Source of the DNA: Zeus faber
Lineage: Eukaryota > Chordata > Actinopteri > Zeiformes > Zeidae
Reading direction: 5' to 3'
Length of the DNA: 64,000 bases
NCBI GenBank assembly: GCA_960531495.1
Contig: OY482852.1
Coordinates: 33,578,117-33,642,116 of the forward strand
This document shows, piece by piece, positions 32,861 through 64,000 of this stretch (its first letter is position 1; every line of letters begins with the position of its first letter). A model generated the notes under the pieces. That model ran no database searches, had not been told where the DNA came from, and worked only from the letters and a program-made list of their open reading frames with translations. A program made the position numbers and the translations under genes.

Positions 32861-34839
32861 GGCCCATACAACATGTATTTGTCGAGGTATGAGCATTTTC
32901 AGAACATTGGACGGTTTGCTGTCTAGCTGAATTAGAGAAACACCGAACCATTGTCTCTTCAGAGGTGAATGATTCAGAATGCTGCAGTACAGCATTGAAA
33001 TTTAATTAATGTGATGAACTATTATGTGCTTCCTAAGTTTTTCTCTCAGATTTCTATGCCCATCTAACATATATTTCTGGAGATATGAGCATTTTCAGAA
33101 CTTGTGACGGTTTGCTGTCTAGCTGAATTAGAGAAACACCGAACCATTGTCTCTTCAGAGGTGAATGATTCAGAATGCTGCAGTACAGCATAGAAATTTA
33201 ATTAATATGATGAACTATTAAGTGCTTCTTAAGTGTTTCTCACAGATTTCTATGCCCATCTAACATGTATTTGTGGAGTTAGGATCATTTTCATCATAGT
33301 GTGCACATGTGGGAAAAAACGCATTTTCAGCTGATTTAAACGTCGAAAAGGGGAATTGGTTAAAAGCTTCAGTCATTACTCTGTGTGACAGTGTCAGACA
33401 GTTTAAATACAATGGTGAACTAGTATATGCTGCTAAAGTGTTGTTTGTCAAACAGTTTTAGGCCCATCTAACATGTATTTGTCGAGTTATGGTCATTTTC
33501 ATCATTATGTGCACATGTGGGAAAAAACGCATTTTCAGCCGATTTAAACGTCGAAAAGGGGAATTGGTTAAACGCTTCAGTCATTACTCTGTGTGACAGT
33601 GTCAGACAGTTTAAATACAATGGTGAACTAGTATATGATGCTAAAGTGTTGTTTGTCAAACAGTTTTAGGCCCATGTAAAATGTATTTGTCGAGTTATGA
33701 TTATTTTCATCATTGTGTGCACATGTGGGAAAAAACGCATTTTCAGCCGATTTAAACGTCGAAAAGGGGAATTGGTTAAACGCTTCAGTCATTACTCTGT
33801 GTGACAGTGTCAGACAGTTTAAATACAATGGTGAACTAGTATATGCTGCTAAAGTGTTGTTTGTCAAACAGTTTTAGGCCAATGTAAAATGTATTTGTCG
33901 AGTTATGATCATTTTCATCATTGTGTGCACATGTGGGAAAAAACGCATTTTCAGCCGATTTAAACGTCGAAAAGGGGAATTGGTTAAACGCTTCAGTCAT
34001 TACTCTGTGTGACAGTGTCAGACAGTTTAAATACAATGGTGAACTAGAGTATGCTGCTAAAGTGTTGTTTGTCAAACAGTTTTAGGCCCATTCAACATGT
34101 ATTTGTCGAGGTATGAGCATTTTCAGAACATTGGACGGTTTGCTGTCTAGCTGAATTAGAGAAACACCGAACCATTGTCTCTTCAGAGGTGAATGATTCA
34201 GAATGCTGCAGTACAGCATTGAAATTTAATTAATGTGATGAACTATTATGTGCTTCCTAAGTTTTTCTCTCAGATTTCTATGCCCATCTAACATATATTT
34301 CTGGAGATATGATCATTTTCAGAACTTGTGACGGTTTGCTGTCTAGCTGAATTAGAGAAACACCGAACCATTGTCTCTTCAGAGGTGAATGATTCAGAAT
34401 GCTGCAGTACAGCATAGAAATTTAATTAATATGATGAACTATTATGTGCTTCTTAAGTGTTTCTCACAGATTTCTAGGCCCATCTAACATGTATTTGTGG
34501 AGTTATGATCATTTTCATCATTGTGTGCACATGTGGGAAAAAACGCATTTTCAGCGGATTTAAACGTCGAAAAGGGGAATTGGTTAAACGCTTCAGTCAT
34601 TACTCTGTGTGACAGTGTCAGACAGTTAAAATACAATGGTGAACTAGTATATGCTGCTAAAGTGTTGTTTGTCAAACAGTTTTAGGCCCATGTAAAATGT
34701 ATTTGTCGAGTTATGATTATTTTCATCATTGTGTGCACATGTGGGAAAAAACGCATTTACAGCCGATTTAAACGTCGAAAAGGGGAATTGGTTAAACGCT
34801 TCAGTCATTACTCTGTGTGACAGTGTCAGACAGTTTAAA
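32861..34839 (+). repeat. A/B stretch: BB AAAA BB AA
   Basis: Monomer starts are 32,861, 33,057, 33,253, 33,461, 33,669, 33,877, 34,085, 34,281, 34,477 and 34,685. I see no long exact partner for the whole stretch. The last A unit runs into the following block. Confidence 0.85.
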
Positions 34840-37390
34840 TACAATGGTGAACTAGTATATGCTGCTAAAGTGTTGTTTGTCAAACAGTGTTAGGCCCATA
34901 CAACATGTATTTGTTGAGGTATGAGCATTTTCAGAACTTGTGACGGTTTGCTGTCTAGCTGAATTAGAGAAACACCGAACCATTGTCTCTTCAGAGGTGA
35001 ATGATTCAGAATGCTGCAGTACAGCATAGAAATTTAATTAATATGATGAACTATTATGTGCTTCCTAAGTTTTTCTCTCAGATTTCTATGCCCATCTAAC
35101 ATGTATTTCTGGAGTTATGATCATTTTCATCATAGTGTGCACACGTGTGAAAAAATGCATTTTCAGCCGATTTAAACGTCGAAAAGGCGAATTGGTCAAA
35201 AGCTTTAGTCATTACTTTGAGTGACAGAGTCAGACAGTTCAAATACAATGGTGAACTAGTATATGCTGCTAAAATGTTGTTTGTCAACCAGTTTTAGGCC
35301 CATATAAAATGTATTTGTCGAGTTATGATCATTTTCATCATAGTGTGCACATCTGGGAAAAAAAGCATTTTCAGCCGATTTAAACGTCGAAAAGGGGAAT
35401 TGGTTAAACGCTTCAGTCATTACTCTGTATGACAGTTTAAATACAATGGTGAACTAGTATATACTGCTAAAGTGTTGTTTGTCAAACAGTTTTAGGCCCA
35501 TCTAACATGTATTTGTCGAGTTATGATCATTTTCATCATTGTGTGCACATGTGGGAAAAAACGCATTTTCAGCCGATTTAAACGTCGAAAAGGGGAATTG
35601 GTTAAACGCTTCAGTCATTACTCTGTGTGACAGTGTCAGACAGTTTAAATACAATGGTGAACTAGTATATGCTGCTAAAGCGTTGTTTGTCAAACAGTTT
35701 TAGGCCCAAACAACATGTATTTGTCGAGGTTTGAGCATTTTCAGAACATTGGACGGTTTGCTGTCTAGCTGAATTAGAGAAACACCGAACCATTGTCTCT
35801 TCAGAGGTGAATGATTCAGAATGCTGCAGTACAGCATAGAAATTTAATTAATATGATGAACTATTATGTGCTTCTTAAGTGTTTCTCACAGATTTCTAGG
35901 CCCATCTAACATGTATTTGTGGAGTTATGATCATTTTCATCATTGTGTGCACATGTGGGAAAAAACGCATTTTCAGCCGATTTAAATGTCGAAAAGGGGA
36001 ATTGGTTAAACGCTTCAGTCATTACTCTGTGTGACAGTGTCAGACAGTTTAAATACAATGGTGAACTAGTATATGCTGCTAAAGTGTTGTTTGTCAACCA
36101 GTTTTAGACCCATCTAACATGTATTTGTCGAGTTATGATCATTTTCATCATTATGTGCACATGTGGGAAAAACGCATTTTCAGCCGATTTAAACGTCGAA
36201 AAGGGGAATTGCTTAAACGCTTCAGTCATTACTCTGTGTGACAGTGTCAGACAGTTTAAATACAATGGTGAACTAGTATATGATGCTAAAGTGTTGTTTG
36301 TCAAACAGTTTTAGGCCCATACAACATGTATTTGTTGAGGTATGAGCATTTTCAGAACATTGGACGGTTTGCTGTCTAGCTGAATTAGAGAAACACCGAA
36401 CCATTGTCTCTTCAGCGGTGAATGATTCAGAATGCTGCAGTACAGCATTGAAATTTAATTAATATGATGAACTATTATGTGCTTCCTTAGTTTTTCTCTC
36501 AGATTTCTATGCCCATCTAACATATATTTCTGGAGATATGATCATTTTCAGAACTTGTGACGGTTTGCTGTCTAGCTGAATTAGAGAAACACCGAACCAT
36601 TGTCTCTTCAGAGGTGAATGATTCAGAATGCTGCAGTACAGCATAGAAATTTAATTAATATGATGAACTATTATGTGCTTCTTAAGTGTTTCTCACAGAT
36701 TTCTAGGCCCATCTAACATGTATTTGTGGAGTTATGATCATTTTCATCATTGTGTGCACATGTGGGAAAAAACGCATTTTCAGCCGATTTAAACGTCGAA
36801 AAGGGGAATTGGTTAAACGCTTCAGTCATTACTCTGTGTGACAGTGTCAGACAGTTTAAATACAATGGTGAACTAGTATATGCTGCTAAAGCGTTGTTTG
36901 TCAAACAGTTTTAGGCCCATACAACATGTATTTGTCGAGGTATGAGCATTTTCAGAACATTGGACGGTTTGCTGTCTAGCTGAATTAGAGAAACACCGAA
37001 CCATTGTCTCTTCAGAGGTGAATGATTCAGAATGCTGCAGTACAGCATTGAAATTTAATTAATGTGATGAACTTTTATGTGCTTCCTAAGTTTTTCTCTA
37101 AGATTTCTATGCCCATCTAACATGTATTTCTGGAGATATGATCATTTTCAGAACTTGTGACGGTTTGCTGTCTAGCTGAATTAGAGAAACACCGAACCAT
37201 TGTCTCTTCAGAGGTGAATGATTCAGAATGCTGCAGTACAGCATAGAAATTTAATTAATATGATGAACTATTATGTGCTTCTTAAGTGTTTCTCACAGAT
37301 TTCTAGGCCCATCTAACATGTATTTGTGGAGTTATGATCATTTTCATCATTGTGTGCACATGTGGGAAAAAACGCATTTTCAGCCGATTT
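34840..37390 (+). repeat. 2.55-kb duplicated block, copy 1
   Basis: This matches 38,683-41,233 at a constant offset of 3,843. Monomer order is B A2 A(198) A, B A A, BB A, BB, then part of A. Shared private marks include GAGGTTTGAGC (35,725; 39,568), CTTCAGCGGTG (36,411; 40,254) and CTCTAAGATTTC (37,095; 40,938). Confidence 0.9.
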
Positions 37391-38682
37391 AAATGTCGAA
37401 AAGGGGAATTGGTTAAACGCTTCAGTCATTACTCTGTGTGACAGTGTCAGACAGTTTAAATACAATGGTGAACTAGTATATGCTGCTAAAGTGTTGTTTG
37501 TCAACCAGTTTTAGACCCATCTAACATGTATTTGTCGAGTTATGATCATTTTCATCATTATGTGCACATGTGGGAAAAACGCATTTTCAGCCGATTTAAA
37601 CGTCGAAAAGGGGAATTGCTTAAACGCTTCAGTCATTACTCTGTGTGACAGTGTCAGACAGTTTAAATACAATGGTGAACTAGTATATGCTGCTAAAGTG
37701 TTGTTTGTCAACCAGTTTTAGACCCATCTAACATGTATTTGTCGAGTTATGATCATTTTCATCATTATGTGCACATGTGGGAAAAACGCATTTTCAGCCG
37801 ATTTAAACGTCGAAAAGGGGAATTGCTTAAACGCTTCAGTCATTACTCTGTGTGACAGTGTCAGACAGTTTAAATACAATGGTGAACTAGTATATGATGC
37901 TAAAGTGTTGTTTGTCAAACAGTTTTAGGCCCATCTAACATGTATTTGTTGAGGTATGAGCATTTTCAGAACATTGGACGGTTTGCTGTCTAGCTGAATT
38001 AGAGAAACACCGAACCATTGTCTCTTCAGAGGTGAATGATTCAGAATGCTGCAGGACAGCATAGAAATTTTATTAATATGATGAACTATTATGTGCTTCC
38101 TAAGTTTTTCTCTCAGATTTCTATGCCCATCTAACATGTATTTCTGGAGTTATGATCATCTTCAGAACTTGTGACGGTTTGCTGTCTAGCTGAATTAGAG
38201 AAACACCGAACCATTGTCTCTTCAGAGGTGAATGATTCAGAATGCTGCAGTACAGCATAGAAATTTAATTAATATGATGAACTATTATGTGCTTCTTAAG
38301 TGTTTCTCACAGATTTCTAGGCCCATCCAACATGTATTTGTGGAGTTATGATCATTTTCATCATTGTGTGCACATGTGGGAAAAAACGCATTTTCAGCCG
38401 ATTTAAACGTCGAAAAGGGGAATTGGTTAAACGCTTCAGTCATTACTCTGTGTGACAGTGTCGGACAGTTTAAATACAATGGTGAACTAGTATATGCTGC
38501 TAAAGTGTTGTTTGTCAAACAGTTTTAGGCCCATCTAACATGTATTTGTCGAGTTATGATCATTTTCATCATTGTGTGCACATGTGGGACAAAACGCATT
38601 TTCAGCCGATTTAAACGTCGAAAAGGGGAATTGGTTAAACGCTTCAGTCATTACTCTGTGTGACAGTGTCAGACAGTTTAAA
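37391..38682 (+). repeat. A/B stretch between the 2.55-kb copies
   Basis: This holds the rest of one A, two successive 207-bp A units (37,514 and 37,721, both with one A fewer in GGGAAAAACGC), two B (37,928; 38,124) and A units from 38,320. The two 207-bp units are nearly identical, consistent with a single-monomer duplication. Confidence 0.85.
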
Positions 38683-41233
38683 TACAATGGTGAACTAGTA
38701 TATGCTGCTAAAGTGTTGTTTGTCAAACAGTGTTAGGCCCATACAACATGTATTTGTTGAGGTATGAGCATTTTCAGAACTTGTGACGGTTTGCTGTCTA
38801 GCTGAATTAGAGAAACACCGAACCATTGTCTCTTCAGAGGTGAATGATTCAGAATGCTGCAGTACAGCATAGAAATTTAATTAATATGATGAACTATTAT
38901 GTGCTTCCTAAGTTTTTCTCTCAGATTTCTATGCCCATCTAACATGTATTTCTGGAGTTATGATCATTTTCATCATAGTGTGCACACGTGTGAAAAAATG
39001 CATTTTCAGCCGATTTAAACGTCGAAAAGGCGAATTGGTCAAAAGCTTTAGTCATTACTTTGAGTGACAGAGTCAGACAGTTCAAATACAATGGTGAACT
39101 AGTATATGCTGCTAAAATGTTGTTTGTCAACCAGTTTTAGGCCCATATAAAATGTATTTGTCGAGTTATGATCATTTTCATCATAGTGTGCACATCTGGG
39201 AAAAAAAGCATTTTCAGCCGATTTAAACGTCGAAAAGGGGAATTGGTTAAACGCTTCAGTCATTACTCTGTATGACAGTTTAAATACAATGGTGAACTAG
39301 TATATACTGCTAAAGTGTTGTTTGTCAAACAGTTTTAGGCCCATCTAACATGTATTTGTCGAGTTATGATCATTTTCATCATTGTGTGCACATGTGGGAA
39401 AAAACGCATTTTCAGCCGATTTAAACGTCGAAAAGGGGAATTGGTTAAACGCTTCAGTCATTACTCTGTGTGACAGTGTCAGACAGTTTAAATACAATGG
39501 TGAACTAGTATATGCTGCTAAAGCGTTGTTTGTCAAACAGTTTTAGGCCCAAACAACATGTATTTGTCGAGGTTTGAGCATTTTCAGAACATTGGACGGT
39601 TTGCTGTCTAGCTGAATTAGAGAAACACCGAACCATTGTCTCTTCAGAGGTGAATGATTCAGAATGCTGCAGTACAGCATAGAAATTTAATTAATATGAT
39701 GAACTATTATGTGCTTCTTAAGTGTTTCTCACAGATTTCTAGGCCCATCTAACATGTATTTGTGGAGTTATGATCATTTTCATCATTGTGTGCACATGTG
39801 GGAAAAAACGCATTTTCAGCCGATTTAAATGTCGAAAAGGGGAATTGGTTAAACGCTTCAGTCATTACTCTGTGTGACAGTGTCAGACAGTTTAAATACA
39901 ATGGTGAACTAGTATATGCTGCTAAAGTGTTGTTTGTCAACCAGTTTTAGACCCATCTAACATGTATTTGTCGAGTTATGATCATTTTCATCATTATGTG
40001 CACATGTGGGAAAAACGCATTTTCAGCCGATTTAAACGTCGAAAAGGGGAATTGCTTAAACGCTTCAGTCATTACTCTGTGTGACAGTGTCAGACAGTTT
40101 AAATACAATGGTGAACTAGTATATGATGCTAAAGTGTTGTTTGTCAAACAGTTTTAGGCCCATACAACATGTATTTGTTGAGGTATGAGCATTTTCAGAA
40201 CATTGGACGGTTTGCTGTCTAGCTGAATTAGAGAAACACCGAACCATTGTCTCTTCAGCGGTGAATGATTCAGAATGCTGCAGTACAGCATTGAAATTTA
40301 ATTAATATGATGAACTATTATGTGCTTCCTTAGTTTTTCTCTCAGATTTCTATGCCCATCTAACATATATTTCTGGAGATATGATCATTTTCAGAACTTG
40401 TGACGGTTTGCTGTCTAGCTGAATTAGAGAAACACCGAACCATTGTCTCTTCAGAGGTGAATGATTCAGAATGCTGCAGTACAGCATAGAAATTTAATTA
40501 ATATGATGAACTATTATGTGCTTCTTAAGTGTTTCTCACAGATTTCTAGGCCCATCTAACATGTATTTGTGGAGTTATGATCATTTTCATCATTGTGTGC
40601 ACATGTGGGAAAAAACGCATTTTCAGCCGATTTAAACGTCGAAAAGGGGAATTGGTTAAACGCTTCAGTCATTACTCTGTGTGACAGTGTCAGACAGTTT
40701 AAATACAATGGTGAACTAGTATATGCTGCTAAAGCGTTGTTTGTCAAACAGTTTTAGGCCCATACAACATGTATTTGTCGAGGTATGAGCATTTTCAGAA
40801 CATTGGACGGTTTGCTGTCTAGCTGAATTAGAGAAACACCGAACCATTGTCTCTTCAGAGGTGAATGATTCAGAATGCTGCAGTACAGCATTGAAATTTA
40901 ATTAATGTGATGAACTTTTATGTGCTTCCTAAGTTTTTCTCTAAGATTTCTATGCCCATCTAACATGTATTTCTGGAGATATGATCATTTTCAGAACTTG
41001 TGACGGTTTGCTGTCTAGCTGAATTAGAGAAACACCGAACCATTGTCTCTTCAGAGGTGAATGATTCAGAATGCTGCAGTACAGCATAGAAATTTAATTA
41101 ATATGATGAACTATTATGTGCTTCTTAAGTGTTTCTCACAGATTTCTAGGCCCATCTAACATGTATTTGTGGAGTTATGATCATTTTCATCATTGTGTGC
41201 ACATGTGGGAAAAAACGCATTTTCAGCCGATTT
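38683..41233 (+). repeat. 2.55-kb duplicated block, copy 2
   Basis: This is the partner of 34,840-37,390. The match ends at the difference TTAAATGTCG (37,390) against TTAAACGTCG (41,233). Confidence 0.9.
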
Positions 41234-46604: not shown

Positions 46605-48888
46605 GGCCCATACAACATGTATTTGTCGAGTAATGAGCATTTTCAGAACATTGGACGTTTTGCTGTCTAGCTGAATTAGAGAAACACCGAACCATTGTCT
46701 CTTCAGAGGTGAATGATTCAGAATGCTGCAGTACAGCATTGAAATGTAATTAATATGATGAACTATTATGTGCTTCCTAAGTTTTTCTCTCAGATTTCTA
46801 TGCCCATCTAACATGTATTTCTGGAGTTATGATCATTTTCAGAACTTGTGACGGTTTGCTGTCTAGCTGAATTAGAGAAACACCGAACCATTGTCTCTTC
46901 AGAGGTGAATGATTCAGAATGCTGCAGGACAGCATAGAAATTTTATTAATATGATGAACTATTATGTGCTTCCTAAGTTTTTCTCTCAGATTTCTATGCC
47001 CATCTAACATGTATTTCTGGAGTTATGATCATTTTCAGAACTTGTGACGGTTTGCTGTCTAGCTGAATTAGAGAAACACCGAACCATTGTCTCTTCAGCG
47101 GTGAATGATTCAGAATGCTGCAGTACAGCATAGAAATTTAATTAATATGATGAACTATTATGTGCTTCTTAAGTGTTTCTCACAGATTTCTAGGCCCATC
47201 TAACATGTATTTGTGGAGTTATGATCATTTTCATCATTGTGTGCACATGTGGGAAAAAACGCATTTTCAGCCGATTTAAACGTCGAAAAGGGGAATTGGT
47301 TAAACGCTTTAGTCATTACTCTGTGTGACAGTGTCAGACAGTTTAAATACAATGGTGAACTAGTATATGCTGCTAAAGTGTTGTTTGTCAAACAGTTTTA
47401 GGCCCATGTAAAATGTATTTGTGGAGTTAGGATCATTTTCATCATTATGTGCACATGTCGGAAAAAACGCATTTTCAGCCGATTTAAACGTCGAAAAGGG
47501 GAATTGCTTAAACGCTTCAGTCATTACTCTGTGTGACAGTGTCAGACAGTTTAAATACAATGGTGAACTAGTATATGCTGCTAAAGTGTTGTTTGTCAAA
47601 CAGTTTTAGGCCCATGTAAAATGTATTTGTCGAGTTATGATCATTTTCATCATTGTGTGCACATGTGGGAAAAAACGCATTTTCAGACGATTTAAACGTC
47701 GAAAAGGGGAATTGGTTAAACGCTTCAGTCATTACTCTGTGTGACAGTGTCAGACAGTTTAAATACAATGGTGAACTGCTATATGCTGCTAAAGCGTTGT
47801 TTGTCAAACAGTCTTAGGCCCATACAACATGTATTTGTCGAGGTATGAGCATTTTCAGAACATTGGACGGTTTGCTGTCTAGCTGAATTAGAGAAACACC
47901 GAACCATTGTCTCTTCAGAGGGGAATGATTCAGAATGCTGCAGGACAGCATAGAAATTTTATTAATATGATGAACTATTATGTGCTTCCTAAGTTTTTCT
48001 CTCAGATTTCTATGCCCATCTAACATGTATTTCTGGAGTTATGATCATTTTCATCATAGTGTGCACACGTGTGAAAAAATGCATTTTCAGCCGATTTAAA
48101 CGTCGAAAAGGCGAATTGGTCAAAAGCTTTAGTCATTACTTTGAGTGACAGAGTCAGACAGTTCAAATACAATGGTGAACTAGTATATGCTGCTAAAGTG
48201 TTGTTTGTCAACCAGTTTTAGGCCCATATAAAATGTATTTGTGGAGTTATGATCATTTTCATCATAGTGTGCACATCTGGGAAAAAAAGCATTTTCAGCC
48301 GATTTAAACGTCGAAAAGGGGAATTGGTTAAACGCTTCAGTCATTACTCTGTGTGACAGTGTCAGACAGTTTAAATACAATGGTGAACTAGTATATGCTG
48401 CTAAAGTGTTGTTTGTCAACAAGTTTTAGGCCCATCTAACATGTATTTGTCGAGTTATGATCATTTTCATCATTATGTGTACATGTGGGAAAAAACGCAT
48501 TTTCAGCCGATTTAAACGTCGAAAAGGGGAATTGGTTAAACGCTTCAGTCATTACTCTGTGTGACAGTGTCAGACAGTTTAAATACAATGGTGAACTAGT
48601 ATATGCTGCTAAAGCGTTGTTTGTCAAACAGTGTTAGGCCCATACAACATGTATTTGTTGAGGTATGAGCATTTTCAGAACTTGTGACGGTTTGCTGTCT
48701 AGCTGAATTAGAGAAACACCGAACCATTGTCTCTTCAGAGGTGAATGATTCAGAATGCTGCAGTACAGCATTGAAATTTTATTAATATGATGAACTATTA
48801 TGTGCTTCCTAAGTTTTTCTCTCAGATTTCTATGCCCATCTAACATGTATTTCTGGAGTTATGATCATTTTCAGAACTTGTGACTGTT
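46605..48888 (+). repeat. Terminal forward-arm stretch, ends in truncated B
   Basis: The order is BBB AAA B A2 A A B, then a B that stops after about 50-56 bp. Monomer starts are 46,605, 46,801, 46,997, 47,193, 47,401, 47,609, 47,817, 48,013, 48,221, 48,429, 48,637 and 48,833. Confidence 0.87.
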
Positions 48889-48891
48889 TGA
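48881..48891. other. Inversion junction of the satellite
   Basis: A forward B reads TCAGAACTTGTGAC. Where the next bases should be GGTTTGCTGTC, the sequence reads TGTTTGACAAACAACAC, the reverse complement of the tail of monomer A. Both sides could supply GTTTG, so the exact join is ambiguous over a few bases of microhomology. From here to the window end every monomer is in the opposite orientation. Confidence 0.93.
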
Positions 48892-51800
48892 CAAACAACA
48901 CTTTAGCAGCACATACTAGTTTATCATTGTATTTAAACTGTCTGACACTGTCACATAGAGTAATGACTGAAGCGTTTAACCGTTCCGCCAAATCGACGTT
49001 AAAATCGGCTTAAAATGCATTTTTTCCCACATGTGTAGACTTTGATGAAAATTATCAGAACTCGAAAAATACATTTTATATGGGCCTAAAACTGGTTGAC
49101 AAACAAGACATTAGCAGCACATACTAGTTCATCATTGTATTTAAACTGTCTTTGAGAAAGACTTAAGAAGCAAAATAATTGTTCCTCATATTAATTAAAG
49201 TTATATGGTGTACGGCAGCATCCTGAATCATTCACCTACAAAGAGACAATGGTTCGGTGTTTCTCTAATTCAGCTCGACAGCAAATCGTCCAAAGTTCTG
49301 AAAATGATCATAACTCGAAAAATACATTTTATAAGGGCCTAAAACTGGCTGACAAACAACACTTTAGCAGCACATACTAGTTTATCATTGTATTTAAACT
49401 GTCTGACACTGTCACATAGAGTAATGACTGAAGCGTTTAACCGTTCCACCAAATCGACGTTAAAATCAGCTGAAAATGCATTTTTTCCCACATGTGTAGA
49501 CTTTGATGAAAATTATCAGAACTCGAAAAATACATTTTATATGGGCCTAAAACTGGTTGACAAACAAGACATAAGCAGCACATACTAGTTCATCATTGTA
49601 TTTAAACTGTCTTTGAGAAAGACTTAAGAAGCAAAATAATTGTTCCTCATATTAATTTAAGTTATATGGTGTACTGCAGCATTCTGAATCATTCACCTAC
49701 AAAGAGACAATGGTTCGGTGTTTCTCTAATTCAGCTCGACAGCAAATCGTCCAAAGTTCTGAAAATGATCATAACTCCACAAATACATGTTAGATGGGCC
49801 TAGAACTCTGTGAGAAACACTTAAGAAGCACATAATAGTTCATCATATTAATTAAATTTCTATGCCGTACTGCAGTATTCTGAATCATGCGCCTACAAAG
49901 AGACAATGGTTCGGTGTTTCTCTAATTCAGCTAGACAGCAAACGGTCCAAAGTTCGGAAAATGATCATAACTCGAAAAATACATTTTATATGGGCCTAAA
50001 ACTGGTTGGCAAACAACACTTTAGCAGCACATACTAGTTTATCATTGTATTTAAACTGTCTGACACTGTCACATAGTAATGGCTGAAGCGTTTAACCGAT
50101 CCGCCTTTTCGACGTTTAAATCGGCTGAAAATGCGTTTTTTTCCCACATGTGTAGACTTTGATGAAAATTATCATAACTCGAAAAATACATTTTATATGG
50201 GCCTAGAACTGGTTGACAAACAAGACTTTAGCAGCACATACTAGTTCATCATTGTATTTAAACTGTCTTTGAGAAAGACTTAAGAAGCAAAATAATTGTT
50301 TCTCATATTAATTAAAGTTATATGGTGTACTGCAGCATTCTGAATCATTCACCTACAAAGAGACAATGGTTCGGTGTTTCTCTAATTCAGCTAGACAGCA
50401 AATCGTCCAAAGTTCTGAAAATGATCATAACTCCACAAATACATGTTAGATGGGCCTAGAACTCTGTGAGAAACACTTAAGAAGCACATAATAGTTCATC
50501 ATATTAATTAAATTTCTATGCTGTACTGCAGTATTCTGAATCATGCACCTACAAAGAGACAATGGTTCGGTGTTTCTCTAATTCAGCTAGACAGCAAATC
50601 GTCCAAAGTTCTGAAAATGATCATAACTCGAAAAATACATTTTATATGGGCCTAAAACTGGTTGACAAACAACACTTTAGCAGCACATACTAGTTTATCA
50701 TTGTATTTAAACTGTCTGACACTGTCACATAGAGTAATGACTGAAGCGTTTAACCGTTCCGCCAAATCGACGTTAAAATCGGCTGAAAATGCGTTTTTTC
50801 CCACGTGTAGACTTTGATGAAAATTATCAGAACTCGAAAAATACATTTTATATGGGCCTAAAACTGGTTGACAAACAAGACTTTAGTAGCACATACTAGT
50901 TTATCATTGTATTTAAACTGTCTGACACTGTCACAGAGTAATGGCTGAAGCGTTTAACCGATCCGCCTTTTCAACGTTTAAATCGGCTGAAAATGCGTTT
51001 TTTCCCACATGTGTAGACTTTGATGAAAATTATCATAACTCGAAAAATACATTTTATATGGGCCTAAAACTGGTTGACAAACAAGACTTTAGCAGCACAT
51101 ACTAGTTTATCATTGTATTTAAACTGTCTTTGAGAAAGACTTAAGAAGCACATAATAGTTCCTCATATTCATTAAAGTTATATGGTGTACTGCAGCATTC
51201 TAAATCATGCGTCTACAAAGAGACAATGGTTCGGTGTTTCTCTAATTCAGCTAGACAGCAAACGATCCAAAGTTCTGAAAATGATCATAACTCGAAAAAT
51301 ACATTTTATATGGGCCTAAAACTGGTTGACAAACAACACTTTAGCAGCACATACTAGTTTATCATTGTATTTAAACTGTCTTTGCGAAAGACTTAAGAAG
51401 CACATAATTGTTCCTCATATTAATTAAAGTTATATGGTGTACTGCAGCATTCAAAATCATGCACCTACAAAGAGACAATTGTTCGGTGTTTCTCTAATTC
51501 AGCTAGACAGCAAATTGTCCAAAGTTCTGAACATGATCATAACTCGAAAAATACATTTTAAATGGGCCTAAAACTGTTTGAAAAACAACACTTTAGCAGC
51601 ACATACTAGTTTATCATTGTATTTAAACTGTCTGACACTGTCACATAGTAATGGCTGAAGCGTTTAACCGATCCGCCTTTTCGACGTTTAAATCGGCTGA
51701 AAATGCGTTTTTTCCCACATGTGTAGACTTTGATGAAAATTATCATAACTCGAAAAATACATTTTATATGGGCCTAAAACTGGTTGACAAACAAGACTTA

Positions 51801-52680
51801 ACAGCACATACTAGTTCATCATTGTATTTAAACTGTCTTTGAGAAAGACTTAAGAAGCAAAATAATTGTTTCTCATATTAATTAAAGTTATATGGTGTAC
51901 TGCAGCATTCTGAATCAATCACCTACAAAGAGACAATGGTTCGGTGTTTCTCTAATTCAGCTAGACAGCAAATCGTCCAAAGTTCTGAAAATGATCATAA
52001 CTCCACAAATACATGTTAGATGGGCCTAGAACTCTGTGAGAAACACTTAAGAAGCACATAATAGTTCATCATATTAATTAAATTTCTATGCTGTACTGCA
52101 GTATTCTGAATCATGCACCTACAAAGAGACAATGGTTCGGTGTTTCTCTAATTCAGCTAGACAGCAAATCGTCCAAAGTTCTGAAAATGATCATAACTCG
52201 AAAAATACATTTTATATGGGCCTAAAACTGGTTGACAAACAACACTTTAGCAGCACATACTAGTTTATCGTTGTATTTAAACTGTCTGACACTGTCACAT
52301 AGAGTAATGACTGAAGCGTTTAACCGATCCGCCTTTTCGACGTTTAAATCGGCTGAAAATGCGTTTTTTCCCACATGTGTAGACTTTGATGAAAATTATC
52401 ATAACTCGAAAAATACATTTTATATGGGCCTAAAACTGGTTGACAAACAACACTTTAGCAGCACATACTAGTTTATCATTGTATTTAAACTGTCTTTGCG
52501 AAAGACTTAAGAAGCACATAATTGTTCCTCATATTAATTAAAGTTATATGGTGTACTGCAGCATTCTAAATCATGCACCTACATAGAGGCAATGGTTCGG
52601 TGTTTCTCAAATTCAGCTAGACAGCAAATCGTCCAAATTTCTGAAAATGATCATAACTCGAAAAATACATTTTATATGGG
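48889..52680 (-). repeat. A'/B'/C mosaic next to the junction
   Basis: In + coordinates the order is A'(part), C 49,085, A' 49,338, C 49,546, B' 49,799, A' 49,995, C 50,202, B' 50,455, A' 50,651, A' 50,857, C 51,063, C 51,315, A' 51,567, C 51,773, B' 52,025, A' 52,221, C 52,429. Three of the four full B' units lie here, so the part nearest the junction is the most like the forward arm in composition. Confidence 0.88.
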
Positions 52681-55600
52681 CCTAAAACTGGTTGACAAAC
52701 AACACTTTAGCAGCACATACTAGTTTATCATTGTATTTAAACTGTCTGACACTGTCACATAGAGTAATGACTGAAGCGTTTAACCGTTCCGCCAAATCGA
52801 CGTTAAAATCGGCTGAAAATGCGTTTTTTCCCACGTGTAGACTTTGATGAAAATTATCAGAACTCGAAAAATACATTTTATATGGGCCTAAAACTGGTTG
52901 ACAAACAAGACTTTAGTAGCACATACTAGTTTATCATTGTATTTAAACTGTCTGACACTGTCACAGAGTAATGGCTGAAGCGTTTAACCGATCCGCCTTT
53001 TCGACGTTTAAATCGGCTGAAAATGCGTTTTTTCCCACATGTGTAGACTTTGATGAAAATTATCATAACTCGAAAAATACATTTTATATGGGCCTAAAAC
53101 TGGTTGACAAACAACACTTTAGCAGCACATACTAGTTTATCATTGTATTTAAACTGTCTTTGCGAAAGACTTAAGAAGCACATAATTGTTCCTCGTATTA
53201 ATTAAAGTTATATGGTGTACTGCAGCATTCTAAATCATGCACCTACAAAGAGGCAATGGTTCGGTGTTTCTCAAATTCAGCTAGACAGCAAATCGTCCAA
53301 ATTTCTGAAAATGATCATAACTCGAAAAATACATTTTATATGGGCCTAAAACTGGTTGACAAACAACACTTTAGCAGCACATACTAGTTTATCATTGTAT
53401 TTAAACTGTCTGACACTGTCACATAGAGTAATGACTGAAGCGTTTAACCGTTCCGCCAAATCGACGTTAAAATCGGCTGAAAATGCGTTTTTTCCCACGT
53501 GTAGACTTTGATGAAAATTATCAGAACTCGAAAAATACATTTTATATGGGCCTAAAACTGGTTGACAAACAAGACTTTAGTAGCACATACTAGTTTATCA
53601 TTGTATTTAAACTGTTTGACACTGTCACAGAGTAATGGCTGAAGCTTTTAACCGATCCGCCTTTTCGACGTTTAAATCGGCTGAAAATGCGTTTTTTCCC
53701 ACATGTGTAGACTTTGATGAAAATTATCATAACTCGAAAAATACATTTTATATGGGCCTAAAACTGGTTGACAAACAACACTTTAGCAGCACATACTAGT
53801 TTATCATTGTATTTAAACTGTCTTTGCGAAAGACTTAAGAAGCACATAATTGTTCCTCATATTAATTAAAGTTATATGGTGTACTGCAGCATTCTAAATC
53901 ATGCACCTACAAAGAGGCAATGGTTCGGTGTTTCTCAAATTCAGCTAGACAGCAAATCGTCCAAATTTCTGAAAATGATCATAACTCGAAAAATACATTT
54001 TATATGGGCCTAAAACTGGTTGACAAACAACACTTTAGCAGCACATACTAGTTCATCATTGTATTTAAACTGTCTGACACCGTCACATGGAGTAATGACT
54101 TAAGCGTTTAACCGATTCGCCTTTTCGACGTTTAAATTGACTGAAAATGCGTTTTTTCCCACATGTGTAGACTTTGATGAAAATTATCAGAACTCGAAAA
54201 ATACATTTTATATGGGCCTAAAACTGGTTGACAAACAAGACTTTAGCAGCACATACTAGTTTATCATTGTATTTAAACTGTCTTTGAGAAAGACTTAAGA
54301 AGCACATAATAGTTCCTCATATTCATTAAAGTTATATGGTGTACTGCAGCATTCTAAATCATGCGCCTACAAAGAGACAATGGTTCGGTGTTTCTCTAAT
54401 TCAGCTAGACAGCAAACGATCCAAAGTTCTGAAAATGATCACAACTCGAAAAATACATTTTATATGGGCCTAAAACTGGTTGACAAACAACACTTTAGCA
54501 GCACATACTAGTTTATCATTGTATTTAAACTGTCTTTGCGAAAGACTTAAGAAGCACATAATTGTTCCTCATATTAATTAAAGTTATATGGTGTACTGCA
54601 GCATTCAAAATCATGCACCTAACAAAGAGACAATTGTTCGGTGTTTCTCTAATTCAGCTAGACAGCAAATTGTCCAAAGTTCTGAACATGATCATAACTC
54701 GAAAAATACATTTTAAATGGGCCTAAAACTGTTTGAAAAACAACACTTTAGCAGCACATACTAGTTTATCATTGTATTTAAACTGTCTGACACTGTCACA
54801 GAGTAATGGCTGAAGCGTTTAACCGATCCGCCTTTTCGACGTTTAAATCGGCTGAAAATGTGTTTTTTCCCACATGTGTAGACTTTGATGAAAATTATCA
54901 TAACTCGAAAAATACATTTTATATCGGCCTAAAACTGGTTGACAAACAAGACTTTAGCAGCACATACTAGTTCATCATTGTATTTAAACTGTCTTTGAGA
55001 AAGACTTAAAAAGCAAAATAATTGTTTCTCATATTAATTAAAGTTATATGGTGTACTGCAGCATTCTGAATCATTCACCTACAAAGAGACAATGGTTCGG
55101 TGTTTCTCTAATTCAGCTAGACAGCAAATCGTCCAAAGTTCTGAAAATGATCATAACTCCACAAATACATGTTAGATGGGCCTAGAACTCTGTGAGAAAC
55201 ACTTAAGAAGCACATAATAGTTCATCATATTAATTAAATTTCTATGCTGTACTGCAGTATTCTGAATCATGCACCTACAAAGAGACAATGGTTCGGTGTT
55301 TCTCTAATTCAGCTAGACAGCAAATCGTCCAAAGTTCTGAAAATGATCATAACTCGAAAAATACATTTTATATGGGCCTAAAACTGGTTGACAAACAACA
55401 CTTTAGCAGCACATACTAGTTTATCATTGTATTTAAACTGTCTGACACTGTCACATAGAGTAATGACTGAAGCGTTTAACCGTTCCGCCAAATCGACGTT
55501 AAAATCGGCTGAAAATGCGTTTTTTCCCACGTGTAGACTTTGATGAAAATTATCAGAACTCGAAAAATACATTTTATATGGGCCTAAAACTGGTTGACAA

Positions 55601-56450
55601 ACAAGACTTTAGTAGCACATACTAGTTTATCATTGTATTTAAACTGTCTGACACTGTCACAGAGTAATGGCTGAAGTGTTTAACCGATCCGCCTTTTCGA
55701 CGTTTAAATCGGCTGAAAATGCGTTTTTTCCCACATGTGTAGACTTTGATGAAAATTATCATAACTCGAAAAATACATTTTATATGGGCCTAAAACTGGT
55801 TGACAAACAAGACTTTAGCAGCACATACTAGTTTATCATTGTATTTATACTGTCTTTGCGAAAGACTTAAGAAGCACATAATTGTTCCTCATATTAATTA
55901 AAGTTATATGGTGTACTGCAGCATTCTAAATCATGCACCTACAAAGAGGCAATGGTTCGGTGTTTCTCAAATTCAGCTAGACAGCAAATCGTCCAAATTT
56001 CTGAAAATGATCATAACTCGAAAAATACATTTTATATGGGCCTAAAACTGGTTGACAAACAACACTTTAGCAGCACATACTAGTTTATCATTGTATTTAA
56101 ACTGTCTGACACTGTCACATAGAGTAATGACTGAAGCGTTTAACCGTTCCGCCAAATCGACGTTAAAATCGGCTGAAAATGCGTTTTTTCCCACGTGTAG
56201 ACTTTGATGAAAATTATCAGAACTCGAAAAATACATTTTATATGGGCCTAAAACTGGTTGACAAACAAGACTTTAGTAGCACATACTAGTTTATCATTGT
56301 ATTTAAACTGTCTGACACTGTCACAGAGTAATGGCTGAAGCGTTTAACTGATCCGCCTTTTCGACGTTTAAATCGGCTGAAAATGCGTTTTTTCCCACGT
56401 GTAGACTTTGATGAAAATTATCATAACTCGAAAAATACATTTTATATGGG
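52681..56450 (-). repeat. A'A'C modules (664 bp) and related units
   Basis: The triplet A' A' C of 206, 206 and 252 bp is tandemly repeated at 52,681 and 53,345 (period 664). It recurs at 55,377, and 56,041 opens another A' A' pair whose second A' is only 204 bp. Between them lie A' 54,009, C 54,217, C 54,469, A' 54,722, C 54,928 and the last B' at 55,181. Confidence 0.88.
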
Positions 56451-57826
56451 CCTAAAACTGGTTGACAAACAACACTTTAGCAGCACATACTAGTTTATCA
56501 TTGTATTTAAACTGTCTTTGCGAAAGACTTAAGAAGCACATAATTGTTCCTCATATTAATTAAAGTTATATGGTGTACTGCAGCATTCTAAATCATGCAC
56601 CTACAAAGAGGCAATGGTTCGGTGTTTCTCAAATTCAGCTAGACAGCAAATCGTCCAAATTTCTGAAAATGATCATAACTCGAAAAATACATTTTATATG
56701 GGCCTAAAACTGGTTGACAAACAACACTTTAGCAGCACATACTAGTTCATCATTATATTTAAACTGTCTGACACTGTCACATGGAGTAATGACTTAAGCG
56801 TTTAACCGATTCGCCTTTTCGACGTTTAAATCGACTGAAAATGCGTTTTTTCCCACATGTGTAGACTTTGATGAAAATTATCAGAACTCGAAAAATACAT
56901 TTTATATGGGCCTAAAACTGGTTGACAAACAAGACTTTAGCAGCACATACTAGTTTATCATTGTATTTAAACTGTCTTTGAGAAAGACTTAAGAAGCACA
57001 TAATAGTTCCTCATATTCATTAAAGTTATATGGTGTACTGCAGCATTCTAAATCATGCGCCTACAAAGAGACAATGGTTCGGTGTTTCTCTAATTCAGCT
57101 AGACAGCAAACGATCCAAAGTTCTGAAAATGATCATAACTCGAAAAATACATTTCATATGGGCCTAAAACTGGTTGACAAACAACACTTTAGCAGCACAT
57201 ACTAGTTTATCATTGTATTTAAACTGTCTTTGAGAAAGACTTAAGAAGCACATAATAGTTCCTCATATTCATTAAAGTTATATGCTGTACTGCAGTATTC
57301 TGAATCATGCACCTACAAAGAGACAATGGTTCGGTGTTTCTCTAATTCAGCTAGACAGCAAATCGTCCAAATTTCTGAAAATGATCATAACTCGAAAAAT
57401 ACATTTTATATGGGCCTAAAACTGGTTGACAAACAACACTTTAGCAGCACATACTAGTTTATCATTGTATTTAAACTGTCTGACACTGTCACATAGAGTA
57501 ATGACTGAAGCGTTTAACCGTTCCGCCAAATCGACGTTAAAATCGGCTGAAAATGCGTTTTTTCCCACGTGTAGACTTTGATGAAAATTATCAGAACTCG
57601 AAAAATACATTTTATATGGGCCTAAAACTGGTTGACAAACAAGACTTTAGTAGCACATACTAGTTTATCATTGTATTTAAACTGTCTGACACTGTCACAG
57701 AGTAATGGCTGAAGCTTTTAACCGATCCGCCTTTTCGACGTTTAAATCGGCTGAAAATGCGTTTTTTCCCACATGTGTAGACTTTGATGAAAATTATCAT
57801 AACTCGAAAAATACATTTTATATGGG
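56451..57826 (-). repeat. Six-monomer unit C A' C C A' A' (1,376 bp)
   Basis: Starts are 56,451, 56,703, 56,911, 57,163, 57,415 and 57,621. The order and subtypes match the first six monomers of the 1,836-bp unit that follows, which has two more monomers (C A', 460 bp). Confidence 0.88.
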
Positions 57827-58286
57827 CCTAAAACTGGTTGACAAACAACACTTTAGCAGCACATACTAGTTTATCATTGTATTTAAACTGTCTTTGCGAA
57901 AGACTGAAGAAGCACATAATTGTTCCTCATATTAATTAAAGTTATATGGTGTACTGCAGCATTCTAAATCATGCACCTACAAAGAGGCAATGGTTCGGTG
58001 TTTCTCAAATTCAGCTAGACAGCAAATCGTCCAAATTTCTGAAAATGATCATAACTCGAAAAATACATTTTATATGGGCCTAAAACTGGTTGACAAACAA
58101 CACTTTAGCAGCACATACTAGTTCATCATTGTATTTAAACTGTCTGACACCGTCACATGGAGTAATGACTTAAGCGTTTAACTGATTCGCCTTTTCGACG
58201 TTTAAATTGACTGAAAATGCGTTTTTTCCCACATGTGTAGACTTTGATGAAAATTATCAGAACTCGAAAAATACATTTTATATGGG

Positions 58287-58538
58287 CCTAAAACTGGTTG
58301 ACAAACAAGACTTTAGCAGCACATACTAGTTTATCATTGTATTTAAACTGTCTTTGAGAAAGACTTAAGAAGCACATAATAGTTCCTCATATTCATTAAA
58401 GTTATATGGTGTACTGCAGCATTCTAAATCATGCGCCTACAAAGAGACAATGGTTCGGTGTTTCTCTAATTCAGCTAGACAGCAAACGATCCAAAGTTCT
58501 GAAAATGATCATAACTCGAAAAATACATTTTATATGGG
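58287..58538 (-). repeat. Reference C monomer (252 bp, A'/B' chimera)
   Basis: Bases 1-67 match A' (to AAACTGTCT). The remaining 185 match B' from its base 12 (GAGAAA, ACTTAAGAAGCACATAAT, ATGCGCCTACAAAGAGAC, AATGGTTCGGTG). The lengths add up exactly, so this is a recombinant of the two monomers and not an insertion of outside DNA. No such unit was found in the forward arm. Confidence 0.9.
58350..58364. other. Hairpin at the C fusion point
   Basis: GTCTTTGAGAAAGAC has perfect 6-bp arms (GTCTTT/AAAGAC) and a 3-base centre. Other C units carry GCG instead of GAG at the centre, with the arms unchanged. It lies precisely where A' sequence joins B' sequence, so neither parent monomer contains it. 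Confidence 0.85.
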
Positions 58539-59662
58539 CCCAAAACTGGTTGACAAACAAGACTTTAGCAGCACATACTAGTTTATCATTGTATTTAAAC
58601 TGTCTTTGAGAAAGACTTAAGAAGCACATAATAGTTCCTCATATTCATTAAAGTTATATGCTGTACTGCAGTATTCTGAATCATGCACCTACAAAGAGAC
58701 AATGGTTCGGTGTTTCTCTAATTCAGCTAGACAGCAAATCGTCCAAATTTCTGAAAATGATCATAACTCGAAAAATACATTTTATATGGGCCTAAAACTG
58801 GTTGACAAACAACACTTTAGCAGAACATACTAGTTTATCATTGTATTTAAACTGTCTGACACTGTCACATAGAGTAATGACTGAAGCGTTTAACCGTTCC
58901 GCCAAATCGACGTTAAAATCGGCTGAAAATGCGTTTTTTCCCACGTGTAGACTTTGATGAAAATTATCAGAACTCGAAAAATACATTTTATATGGGCCTA
59001 AAACTGGTTGACAAACAAGACTTTAGTAGCACATACTAGTTTATCATTGTATTTAAACTGTCTGACACTGTCACAGAGTAATGGCTGAAGCGTTTAACCG
59101 ATCCGCCTTTTCGACGTTTAAATCGGCTGAAAATGCTTTTTTTCCCACATGTGTAGACTTTGATGAAAATTATCATAACTCGAAAAATACATTTTATATG
59201 GGCCTAAAACTGGTTGACAAACACCACTTTAGCAGCACATACTAGTTTATCATTGTATTTAAACTGTCTTTGCGAAAGACTTAAGAAGCACATAATTGTT
59301 CCTCATATTAATTAAAGTTATATGGTGTACTGCAGCATTCTAAATCATGCACCTACAAAGAGGCAATGGTTCGGTGTTTCTCAAATTCAGCTAGACAGCA
59401 AATCGTCCAAATTTCTGAAAATGATCATAACTCGAAAAATACATTTTATATGGGCCTAAAACTGGTTGACAAACAACACTTTAGCAGCACATACTAGTTC
59501 ATCATTGTATTTAAACTGTCTGACACTGTCACATGGAGTAATGACTTAAGCGTTTAACCGATTCGCCTTTTCGACGTTTAAATCGACTGAAAATGCGTTT
59601 TTTCCCACATGTGTAGACTTTGATGAAAATTATCAGAACTCGAAAAATACATTTTATATGGG

Positions 59663-61498
59663 CCTAAAACTGGTTGACAAACAACACTTTAGCAGCACAT
59701 ACTAGTTTATCATTGTATTTAAACTGTCTTTGCGAAAGACTTAAGAAGCACATAATTGTTCCTCATATTAATTAAAGTTATATGGTGTACTGCAGCATTC
59801 TAAATCATGCACCTACAAAGAGGCAATGGTTCGGTGTTTCTCAAATTCAGCTAGACAGCAAATCGTCCAAATTTCTGAAAATGATCATAACTCGAAAAAT
59901 ACATTTTATATGGGCCTAAAACTGGTTGACAAACAACACTTTAGCAGCACATACTAGTTCATCATTGTATTTAAACTGTCTGACACCGTCACATGGAGTA
60001 ATGACTTAAGCGTTTAACCGATTCGCCTTTTCGACGTTTAAATTGACTGAAAATGCGTTTTTTCCCACATGTGTAGACTTTGATGAAAATTATCAGAACT
60101 CGAAAAATACATTTTATATGGGCCTAAAACTGGTTGACAAACAAGACTTTAGCAGCACATACTAGTTTATCATTGTATTTAAACTGTCTTTGAGAAAGAC
60201 TTAAGAAGCACATAATAGTTCCTCATATTCATTAAAGTTATATGGTGTACTGCAGCATTCTAAATCATGCGCCTACAAAGAGACAATGGTTCGGTGTTTC
60301 TCTAATTCAGCTAGACAGCAAACGATCCAAAGTTCTGAAAATGATCATAACTCGAAAAATACATTTTATATGGGCCCAAAACTGGTTGACAAACAAGACT
60401 TTAGCAGCACATACTAGTTTATCATTGTATTTAAACTGTCTTTGAGAAAGACTTAAGAAGCACATAATAGTTCCTCATATTCATTAAAGTTATATGCTGT
60501 ACTGCAGTATTCTGAATCATGCACCTACAAAGAGACAATGGTTCGGTGTTTCTCTAATTCAGCTAGACAGCAAATCGTCCAAATTTCTGAAAATGATCAT
60601 AACTCGAAAAATACATTTTATATGGGCCTAAAACTGGTTGACAAACAACACTTTAGCAGAACATACTAGTTTATCATTGTATTTAAACTGTCTGACACTG
60701 TCACATAGAGTAATGACTGAAGCGTTTAACCGTTCCGCCAAATCGACGTTAAAATCGGCTGAAAATGCGTTTTTTCCCACGTGTAGACTTTGATGAAAAT
60801 TATCAGAACTCGAAAAATACATTTTATATGGGCCTAAAACTGGTTGACAAACAAGACTTTAGTAGCACATACTAGTTTATCATTGTATTTAAACTGTCTG
60901 ACACTGTCACAGAGTAATGGCTGAAGCGTTTAACCGATCCGCCTTTTCGACGTTTAAATCGGCTGAAAATGCTTTTTTTCCCACATGTGTAGACTTTGAT
61001 GAAAATTATCATAACTCGAAAAATACATTTTATATGGGCCTAAAACTGGTTGACAAACACCACTTTAGCAGCACATACTAGTTTATCATTGTATTTAAAC
61101 TGTCTTTGCGAAAGACTTAAGAAGCACATAATTGTTCCTCATATTAATTAAAGTTATATGGTGTACTGCAGCATTCTAAATCATGCACCTACAAAGAGGC
61201 AATGGTTCGGTGTTTCTCAAATTCAGCTAGACAGCAAATCGTCCAAATTTCTGAAAATGATCATAACTCGAAAAATACATTTTATATGGGCCTAAAACTG
61301 GTTGACAAACAACACTTTAGCAGCACATACTAGTTCATCATTGTATTTAAACTGTCTGACACTGTCACATGGAGTAATGACTTAAGCGTTTAACCGATTC
61401 GCCTTTTCGACGTTTAAATCGACTGAAAATGCGTTTTTTCCCACATGTGTAGACTTTGATGAAAATTATCAGAACTCGAAAAATACATTTTATATGGG
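59663..61498 (-). repeat. 1,836-bp higher-order repeat, copy 2
   Basis: Same eight monomers and all private marks as copy 1. Differences from copy 1 that I saw are GACTTAAG for GACTGAAG (57,903) and AACCGATTCG for AACTGATTCG (58,180). Confidence 0.93.
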
Positions 61499-63334
61499 CC
61501 TAAAACTGGTTGACAAACAACACTTTAGCAGCACATACTAGTTTATCATTGTATTTAAACTGTCTTTGCGAAAGACTTAAGAAGCACATAATTGTTCCTC
61601 ATATTAATTAAAGTTATATGGTGTACTGCAGCATTCTAAATCATGCACCTACAAAGAGGCAATGGTTCGGTGTTTCTCAAATTCAGCTAGACAGCAAATC
61701 GTCCAAATTTCTGAAAATGATCATAACTCGAAAAATACATTTTATATGGGCCTAAAACTGGTTGACAAACAACACTTTAGCAGCACATACTAGTTCATCA
61801 TTGTATTTAAACTGTCTGACACCGTCACATGGAGTAATGACTTAAGCGTTTAACCGATTCGCCTTTTCGACGTTTAAATTGACTGAAAATGCGTTTTTTC
61901 CCACATGTGTAGACTTTGATGAAAATTATCAGAACTCGAAAAATACATTTTATATGGGCCTAAAACTGGTTGACAAACAAGACTTTAGCAGCACATACTA
62001 GTTTATCATTGTATTTAAACTGTCTTTGAGAAAGACTTAAGAAGCACATAATAGTTCCTCATATTCATTAAAGTTATATGGTGTACTGCAGCATTCTAAA
62101 TCATGCGCCTACAAAGAGACAATGGTTCGGTGTTTCTCTAATTCAGCTAGACAGCAAACGATCCAAAGTTCTGAAAATGATCATAACTCGAAAAATACAT
62201 TTTATATGGGCCCAAAACTGGTTGACAAACAAGACTTTAGCAGCACATACTAGTTTATCATTGTATTTAAACTGTCTTTGAGAAAGACTTAAGAAGCACA
62301 TAATAGTTCCTCATATTCATTAAAGTTATATGCTGTACTGCAGTATTCTGAATCATGCACCTACAAAGAGACAATGGTTCGGTGTTTCTCTAATTCAGCT
62401 AGACAGCAAATCGTCCAAATTTCTGAAAATGATCATAACTCGAAAAATACATTTTATATGGGCCTAAAACTGGTTGACAAACAACACTTTAGCAGAACAT
62501 ACTAGTTTATCATTGTATTTAAACTGTCTGACACTGTCACATAGAGTAATGACTGAAGCGTTTAACCGTTCCGCCAAATCGACGTTAAAATCGGCTGAAA
62601 ATGCGTTTTTTCCCACGTGTAGACTTTGATGAAAATTATCAGAACTCGAAAAATACATTTTATATGGGCCTAAAACTGGTTGACAAACAAGACTTTAGTA
62701 GCACATACTAGTTTATCATTGTATTTAAACTGTCTGACACTGTCACAGAGTAATGGCTGAAGCGTTTAACCGATCCGCCTTTTCGACGTTTAAATCGGCT
62801 GAAAATGCTTTTTTTCCCACATGTGTAGACTTTGATGAAAATTATCATAACTCGAAAAATACATTTTATATGGGCCTAAAACTGGTTGACAAACACCACT
62901 TTAGCAGCACATACTAGTTTATCATTGTATTTAAACTGTCTTTGCGAAAGACTTAAGAAGCACATAATTGTTCCTCATATTAATTAAAGTTATATGGTGT
63001 ACTGCAGCATTCTAAATCATGCACCTACAAAGAGGCAATGGTTCGGTGTTTCTCAAATTCAGCTAGACAGCAAATCGTCCAAATTTCTGAAAATGATCAT
63101 AACTCGAAAAATACATTTTATATGGGCCTAAAACTGGTTGACAAACAACACTTTAGCAGCACATACTAGTTCATCATTGTATTTAAACTGTCTGACACTG
63201 TCACATGGAGTAATGACTTAAGCGTTTAACCGATTCGCCTTTTCGACGTTTAAATCGACTGAAAATGCGTTTTTTCCCACATGTGTAGACTTTGATGAAA
63301 ATTATCAGAACTCGAAAAATACATTTTATATGGG
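61499..63334 (-). repeat. 1,836-bp higher-order repeat, copy 3
   Basis: Same eight monomers. I noticed no difference from copy 2 at the positions compared. Confidence 0.93.
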
Positions 63335-64000
63335 CCTAAAACTGGTTGACAAACAACACTTTAGCAGCACATACTAGTTTATCATTGTATTTAAACTGTC
63401 TTTGCGAAAGACTTAAGAAGCACATAATTGTTCCTCATATTAATTAAAGTTATATGGTGTACTGCAGCATTCTAAATCATGCACCTACAAAGAGGCAATG
63501 GTTCGGTGTTTCTCAAATTCAGCTAGACAGCAAATCGTCCAAATTTCTGAAAATGATCATAACTCGAAAAATACATTTTATATGGGTCTAAAACTGGTTG
63601 ACAAACAACACTTTAGCAGCACATACTAGTTCATCATTGTATTTAAACTGTCTGACACCGTCACATGGAGTAATGACTTAAGCGTTTAACCGATTCGCCT
63701 TTTCGACGTTTAAATTGACTGAAAATGCGTTTTTTCCCACATGTGTAGACTTTGATGAAAATTATCAGAACTCGAAAAATACATTTTATATGGGCCTAAA
63801 ACTGGTTGACAAACAAGACTTTAGCAGCACATACTAGTTTATCATTGTATTTAAACTGTCTTTGAGAAAGACTTAAGAAGCACATAATAGTTCCTCATAT
63901 TCATTAAAGTTATATGGTGTACTGCAGCATTCTAAATCATGCGCCTACAAAGAGACAATGGTTCGGTGTTTCTCTAATTCAGCTAGACAGCAAACGATCC
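63335..64000 (-). repeat. 1,836-bp higher-order repeat, partial copy 4
   Basis: C, A' and most of another C, cut by the window end. One private change is visible, GGGTCTAAAAC near 63,585 instead of GGGCCTAAAAC. Confidence 0.92.

Follow-up and report, generated by a model that had tools for sequence, protein, structure and literature searches.

Orientation Switches in Described Satellites

Switches of orientation within satellite DNA have been described in several organisms. The closest system is that of Tribolium madens, where TmSat1 and TmSat2 form macro-dyads, inverted satellite subarrays with conserved switch points, as described in excerpts of PMC13081366. According to the same excerpts, the switch sites recur thousands of times with hardly any sequence difference and have the support of raw reads, and the authors regarded such macro-dyads as documented until then only within Tribolium (PMC13081366). 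In PMC13427858, macro-dyads appear in the reference list only. Large inversions and reversed blocks are reported for primate alpha-satellite arrays in extracts of PMC11062924, reversed blocks are contained in the centromere units of Chionographis japonica according to extracts of PMC10264360, and breakpoints of deer-mouse inversions were frequently located in centromeric and telomeric regions, as stated in part of PMC9715431. The effect of such a switch on how an array goes on to evolve is a question of its own.

The locus treated here lies in a stretch of 64,000 nucleotides from Zeus faber (the window) and is a member of this known kind, an orientation switch in a satellite, in which long head-to-tail arrays of a single family occupy one strand before a join and the other strand after it. 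The preliminary description of the locus had noted that orientation switches occur in centromeric satellites, and Tribolium, primate alpha satellite and Chionographis can be cited as known cases from the excerpted texts. As in the excerpts on Tribolium madens, multi-kilobase subarrays of one satellite flip at a sharp point where a diverged subunit is found, and the arms of 23.9 kb and at least 15.1 kb correspond to the several to tens of kilobases of inverted subarrays of that type (PMC13081366). One TmSat1/TmSat2 transition zone is described in the excerpts as a sharp chimera, built from truncated subunits, in which a 6-nt motif is duplicated (PMC13081366). The present locus differs in that there is one join in the window and in that its arms are separate subfamilies; the comparison with the Tribolium excerpts is one of organisation, as the satellites were not aligned base by base, and hairpins are compared by folding energy here and by stem length at the site there (PMC13081366). 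Primate alpha satellite differs in scale and in monomer family, and polymorphism and read support are known only there (extracts of PMC11062924), whereas the monomers of Chionographis japonica measure 23 and 28 bp and lie in CenH3-positive units (extracts of PMC10264360).

The snake satellite PBI-DdeI was considered because of its monomer length. It is AT-rich and has monomers of 194–210 bp, and in both respects it resembles A and B of the satellite found here (extracts of PMC6820872). It was ruled out, as neither the two conserved motifs nor the two primers given in these extracts had a match in the window with up to two mismatches for the 13-base motif and up to four for the other three sequences. 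Two monomer patterns had no match in viral contigs, one pattern had none in genome contigs, and a 1,836-bp higher-order repeat had none among phage and plasmid records; the collections searched consist of prokaryotes, viruses and plasmids, and silence there says little. Rfam gave no match on the whole window, and monomer strings gave none in paper texts. Strings of the simple repeat matched one breast-cancer paper, which was judged a chance string.

Organisation of the Window

The window is made up of three blocks, a simple repeat, a forward satellite array and the same satellite reversed. Positions 1–24,932 hold 24.9 kb of a pyrimidine-rich simple repeat of TTTC and AATC words (2,894 and 1,229 of the 5,757 C-ended words). 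This block is nearly free of G (374 G), has a GC skew of −0.84 to −0.91 per 2 kb up to position 24,000, and terminates in a T run immediately beside the satellite, which begins at 24,936.

The monomers were assigned by a strand-aware Viterbi path that took both strands of the forward-arm consensus sequences A (208 bp) and B (196 bp) as templates. The decomposition yielded 221 segments with a single strand switch in 39 kb of satellite, at a jump penalty under which a very short reversed piece could go undetected. The forward arm (24,936–48,882, forward strand) spans 23.9 kb and contains 68 full A (208 bp), 46 full B (196 bp) and a few truncated units, with A and B following no one fixed higher-order order. 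The reverse arm (48,883–64,000, reverse strand) runs to the window end and thus spans at least 15.1 kb. It holds 32 full A' (206–208 bp), 30 B/A fusion units and four full-length B', and its first A is truncated by the join. These lengths agree with the preliminary description, in which about 24 kb of forward A/B satellite abutted at least 15 kb of the same family in reverse.

The first full-length B' lies at 49,778–49,973 on the reverse strand and the others start at 50,434, 52,004 and 55,160, so that all four are in the join-proximal half of the reverse arm. Farther from the join, at 58,248–64,000 on the reverse strand, a higher-order repeat of 1,836 bp is found in about three copies. It consists of eight units in the window order AAhAhAhh, where h is the fusion unit, and its copies are 99.7–100% identical in 300-base steps. 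In the forward arm, a duplicated block at 34,536–40,935 with a lag of 3,843 bp has 800-bp stretches that are 98–100% identical, and another repeat with a lag of 1,824 bp and 96.6–100% identity was seen at 28,936–32,935.

Monomers and Subfamilies

A and B are distant homologues, as their doubled sequences align locally with a score of 98, whereas 200 shuffles reached no more than 40.5. The fusion unit, C or h, joins B 1–167 to A 124–208 and is present in 30 copies, all of them in the reverse arm. Its complete copies measure 252 bp (24 copies) or 253 bp (five copies), and the thirtieth is interrupted by the window end. The preliminary description had named C as a unit that distinguishes the arms; its confinement to the reverse arm bears this out, although the supposed third unit is a fusion of the other two. 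Over its last 85 bases, C shows one difference from the reverse A consensus and seven from the forward A consensus, which places its formation within the reverse lineage. When a fusion unit is inspected by eye (e.g. 58,266–58,517), a B stretch is followed by an A stretch that aligns with that same B stretch, which points to a non-allelic join. The motif TCAGA stands near the break in both forward-arm parents of the fusion and is absent from the fusion consensus.

Identities, trees and positional trends cover the units of full length, namely 68 forward A, 32 reverse A, 46 forward B and four reverse B, together with the B parts of 29 of the 30 fusion units. Mean identity among A units was 95.8% in the forward arm (2,278 pairs) and 95.9% in the reverse arm (496 pairs), compared with 89.1% between the arms (2,176 pairs). 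Among B units of the forward arm it was 95.8%; forward B had a mean identity of 92.3% to full B' and of 87.3% to the fusion B parts, and full B' had one of 92.1% to the fusion B parts. In FastTree trees, one split divided the arms for A (labels 0.999 and 0.751), and one split did so for B together with the fusion parts (labels 0.984 and 0.854); the labels were taken after midpoint re-rooting, which may shift them. Judged by these comparisons, the arms are separate subfamilies, and the earlier statement that they are clearly different is upheld by trees of both monomers that split cleanly by arm.

The Join

The strand switch was placed within 48,883–48,890. To its left lies a truncated forward B (48,856–48,890, forward strand) that comprises B positions 1 to about 27–35, and to its right reverse A is entered about 27 bases from its reverse-complemented start. 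This agrees with the claim that the join lies inside a truncated B and the tail of an A'. The switch is sharp, and the decomposition placed no mixed units beside it. The 36-mer across the junction (48,872–48,907) has a single occurrence in the window when up to three mismatches are allowed, and none of 100 shuffles contained it.

The join zone (48,883–48,890, no strand assigned) reads ACTGTTTG, and its variants were tallied across copies. Forward B carries ACGGTTTG at this site in 45 of 46 copies and ACGTTTTG in the remaining one, and reverse-arm A carries ACTGGTTG in 59 of 62 copies, ACTGTTTG in two and ACTGGCTG in one. T48885 agrees with reverse-arm A and with none of the 46 forward B, and T48887 agrees with forward B (45/46) and with only two of the 62 reverse-arm A copies; the order of the two bases is therefore the reverse of what a single clean break would leave. 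Three histories could account for this: the right parent carried the rare ACTGTTTG, so that AC is all that B and A have in common ahead of the break; the left parent was a B with a T that is unseen in the 46 copies; or one base was altered after the join. ACTGTTTG is the usual form of forward-arm A (56 of 69 copies, among the 12 commonest variants listed). The bases that follow the join are of the reverse-arm type GCACATACTAGTTTATC, where forward A has GCATATACTAGTTCACC.

A microhomology at the join is possible but weakly supported. The preliminary description had GTTTG available on both sides, which is true of forward B (45 of 46 copies, the remaining copy having TTTTG), but it is carried by only two of the 62 reverse-arm A copies, and the claim is thus insecure for that side. 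The usual reverse-arm A and B share exactly only AC (two bases) or TTG (three bases) at the join. When the forward-arm consensus B was set against the reversed forward-arm consensus A in all 40,768 phase pairs, five or more bases were shared in 0.53% and two or more in 17%. A template switch at a small palindrome was also considered, as the forward A consensus contains GTTTGTCAAAC and the join zone touches its reversed form. It is not claimed, because the left parent is B.

Homogenisation along the Arms

Comparisons within an arm were done in blocks of 800 bp with matches of at least 400 bases, and those across arms with matches of at least 150 bases, in both cases over the complete blocks of each arm. 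Homogenisation is lower in units close to the join, an effect that is clear in the reverse arm and weak in the forward arm. In the reverse arm, the best own-arm match is 93.5% at the join and climbs with distance to 100%, which is reached in the last six of 18 blocks (rho 0.94). The trend over the 29 forward blocks is weak and non-significant (rho 0.36, p 0.059). The forward block nearest the join (47,336–48,135) has a best own-arm match of 95.6%, and the seven blocks at 100% all lie within 28.9–41 kb. The end of the forward arm at the simple repeat is likewise lower (97.6%), so the decay may belong to any array edge. Of the four monomer sets, two increased in own-arm identity with distance from the join, namely forward A (rho 0.27, p 0.026, n = 68) and the fusion B parts (rho 0.57, p 0.001, n = 29; both p values uncorrected), and this trend was absent in the other two (reverse A, rho 0.06; forward B, rho 0.05).

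These less homogenised units also bear on an assembly or library artefact, in which two satellite pieces that are not adjacent in the genome were joined. A satellite beside a long simple repeat, here of 25 kb, is difficult to assemble, and a chimera of different molecules or a misassembly is possible. Less homogenised units near the join would be unexpected from a random misjoin, and a misjoin in the assembly graph would require a long overlap, whereas the join zone has only eight bases. A foldback chimera predicts inverted flanks that are nearly identical. The 800-bp block right of the join has its best-scoring inverted match at 78.8% over 723 bases, the best-scoring inverted matches of all 47 blocks of both arms range from 75.7 to 90.0%, and BLAST of the 2 kb left against the 2 kb right of the join gave up to 89.9% among the matches listed. 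With best-scoring inverted matches at or below about 90%, a foldback origin is unlikely and was rejected. The closest single units across arms (A up to 92.3%, full B up to 94.9%) and the 38 exact 60-mers common to both arms are likewise far from what a foldback would give. A symmetric comparison without gaps found no more than 28% identity, but its centre was fixed at the join, and for this reason the argument against a foldback rests on the BLAST comparison. Taken as a whole, an artefact is considered unlikely.

Origin of the Join

With modest confidence, the join is read as an orientation boundary, probably real and not recent, on either side of which concerted evolution proceeds independently. 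Arrays of one satellite family that run in opposite directions would have become joined here, probably through repair with little homology, by end-joining or a template switch. Repeats that share an orientation are homogenised by unequal exchange, which cannot act across a strand switch, and the join would thus now separate two domains of concerted evolution. Each arm has a subfamily of its own and, at a distance from the join, highly identical amplifications of its own. This reading is drawn from one junction at one locus, from the sequence of this window. It allows for a divergence of the arms either earlier or later than the join, and its probability overlaps with those of rival readings.

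The order of events is where a rival explanation enters, to which a little less than an even chance is given. Two arrays might have diverged elsewhere and been joined later, by translocation, by insertion of an excised circle or by an inversion whose other break lies outside the window, all of which are possible routes, and orientation would then not be the cause of the divergence. It overlaps with the orientation-boundary reading, and the two probabilities are not mutually exclusive. In line with a later join, the arms differ in organisation along their whole length, and cross-arm identity showed no significant rise toward the join in any of four unit sets (rho with distance 0.04 for reverse A and 0.03 for the fusion B parts). 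For forward A it even fell slightly toward the join (rho with distance 0.25, p 0.042, uncorrected), and the nearest full reverse A has a mean cross-arm identity of 0.864 compared with an arm median of 0.894. However, the second-nearest lies above this median (0.901), and forward B leans non-significantly in the opposite direction (rho −0.11, p 0.48; best match −0.20, p 0.17). The full B' also speak against a later join, as they are nearer to forward B than the fusion units are and sit toward the join, as expected of relics of a shared older state; counted from the join, they rank 3, 5, 9 and 16 among the 33 reverse B-type units (four full B' and 29 fusion B parts; one-sided post hoc P 0.044). 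Cross-arm trends and B' positions thus pull in different directions as to whether divergence came before or after the join.

The preliminary description had spoken of an inversion. The strand switch and its place stand, but an inversion is only one possible origin, with no second breakpoint in the window, and the joining of two already diverged arrays would fit the sequence as well. A further and tentative proposal, held to be rather doubtful, is that the strand switch itself is a barrier to concerted evolution. The satellite would then split into subfamilies in place, as the two orientations no longer exchange by unequal crossover, the join would keep the oldest units, and switches would drive the birth of subfamilies.

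The locus is of some interest in that strand, subfamily and homogenisation gradient are coupled at one join that is resolved to the base. If it is true that a switch blocks homogenisation, each such join marks subfamilies and helps to create them; if it does not, the join is an ordinary boundary between two subfamilies. The barrier idea could be tested in existing long-read assemblies.

Folding of the Join Region

Large secondary structures had been named as a possibility for inverted arms of this size, and folding was computed with DNA energy parameters. Over 600 bases, the join folds at −105 kcal/mol, compared with −60 kcal/mol for one-way forward windows (sd 4, n = 37), and over 1,200 bases at −353 compared with −127 kcal/mol for the one-way array. 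In this general sense the remark is borne out, but the join is no better a hairpin centre than a random join. Random forward/reverse joins of 600 bases folded at −168 kcal/mol (sd 44), and 283 of 300 were more stable than the real one, as were 58 of 60 in a separate earlier draw.

The greater stability than in a one-way array would also be in keeping with a functional macro-dyad, in which the inverted arms are kept for a large hairpin or chromatin loop at a putative centromere, as proposed for Tribolium. The arm sizes are within the range given for Tribolium madens in the excerpts of PMC13081366, and such a function would be compatible with the orientation boundary preferred above. It is nevertheless regarded as very improbable, as any inversion of this satellite gives such folding and most random joins are more stable. 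Over 300 bases, the join (−32.4 kcal/mol) is moreover close to the one-way array (−28.3 kcal/mol, sd 3.1), and 341 of 400 random joins were more stable. The join is thus predicted to be a large inverted repeat whose centre is poorly matched, and no optimised hairpin, and it appears unremarkable at 1,200 bases, where 57 of 80 random joins were more stable.
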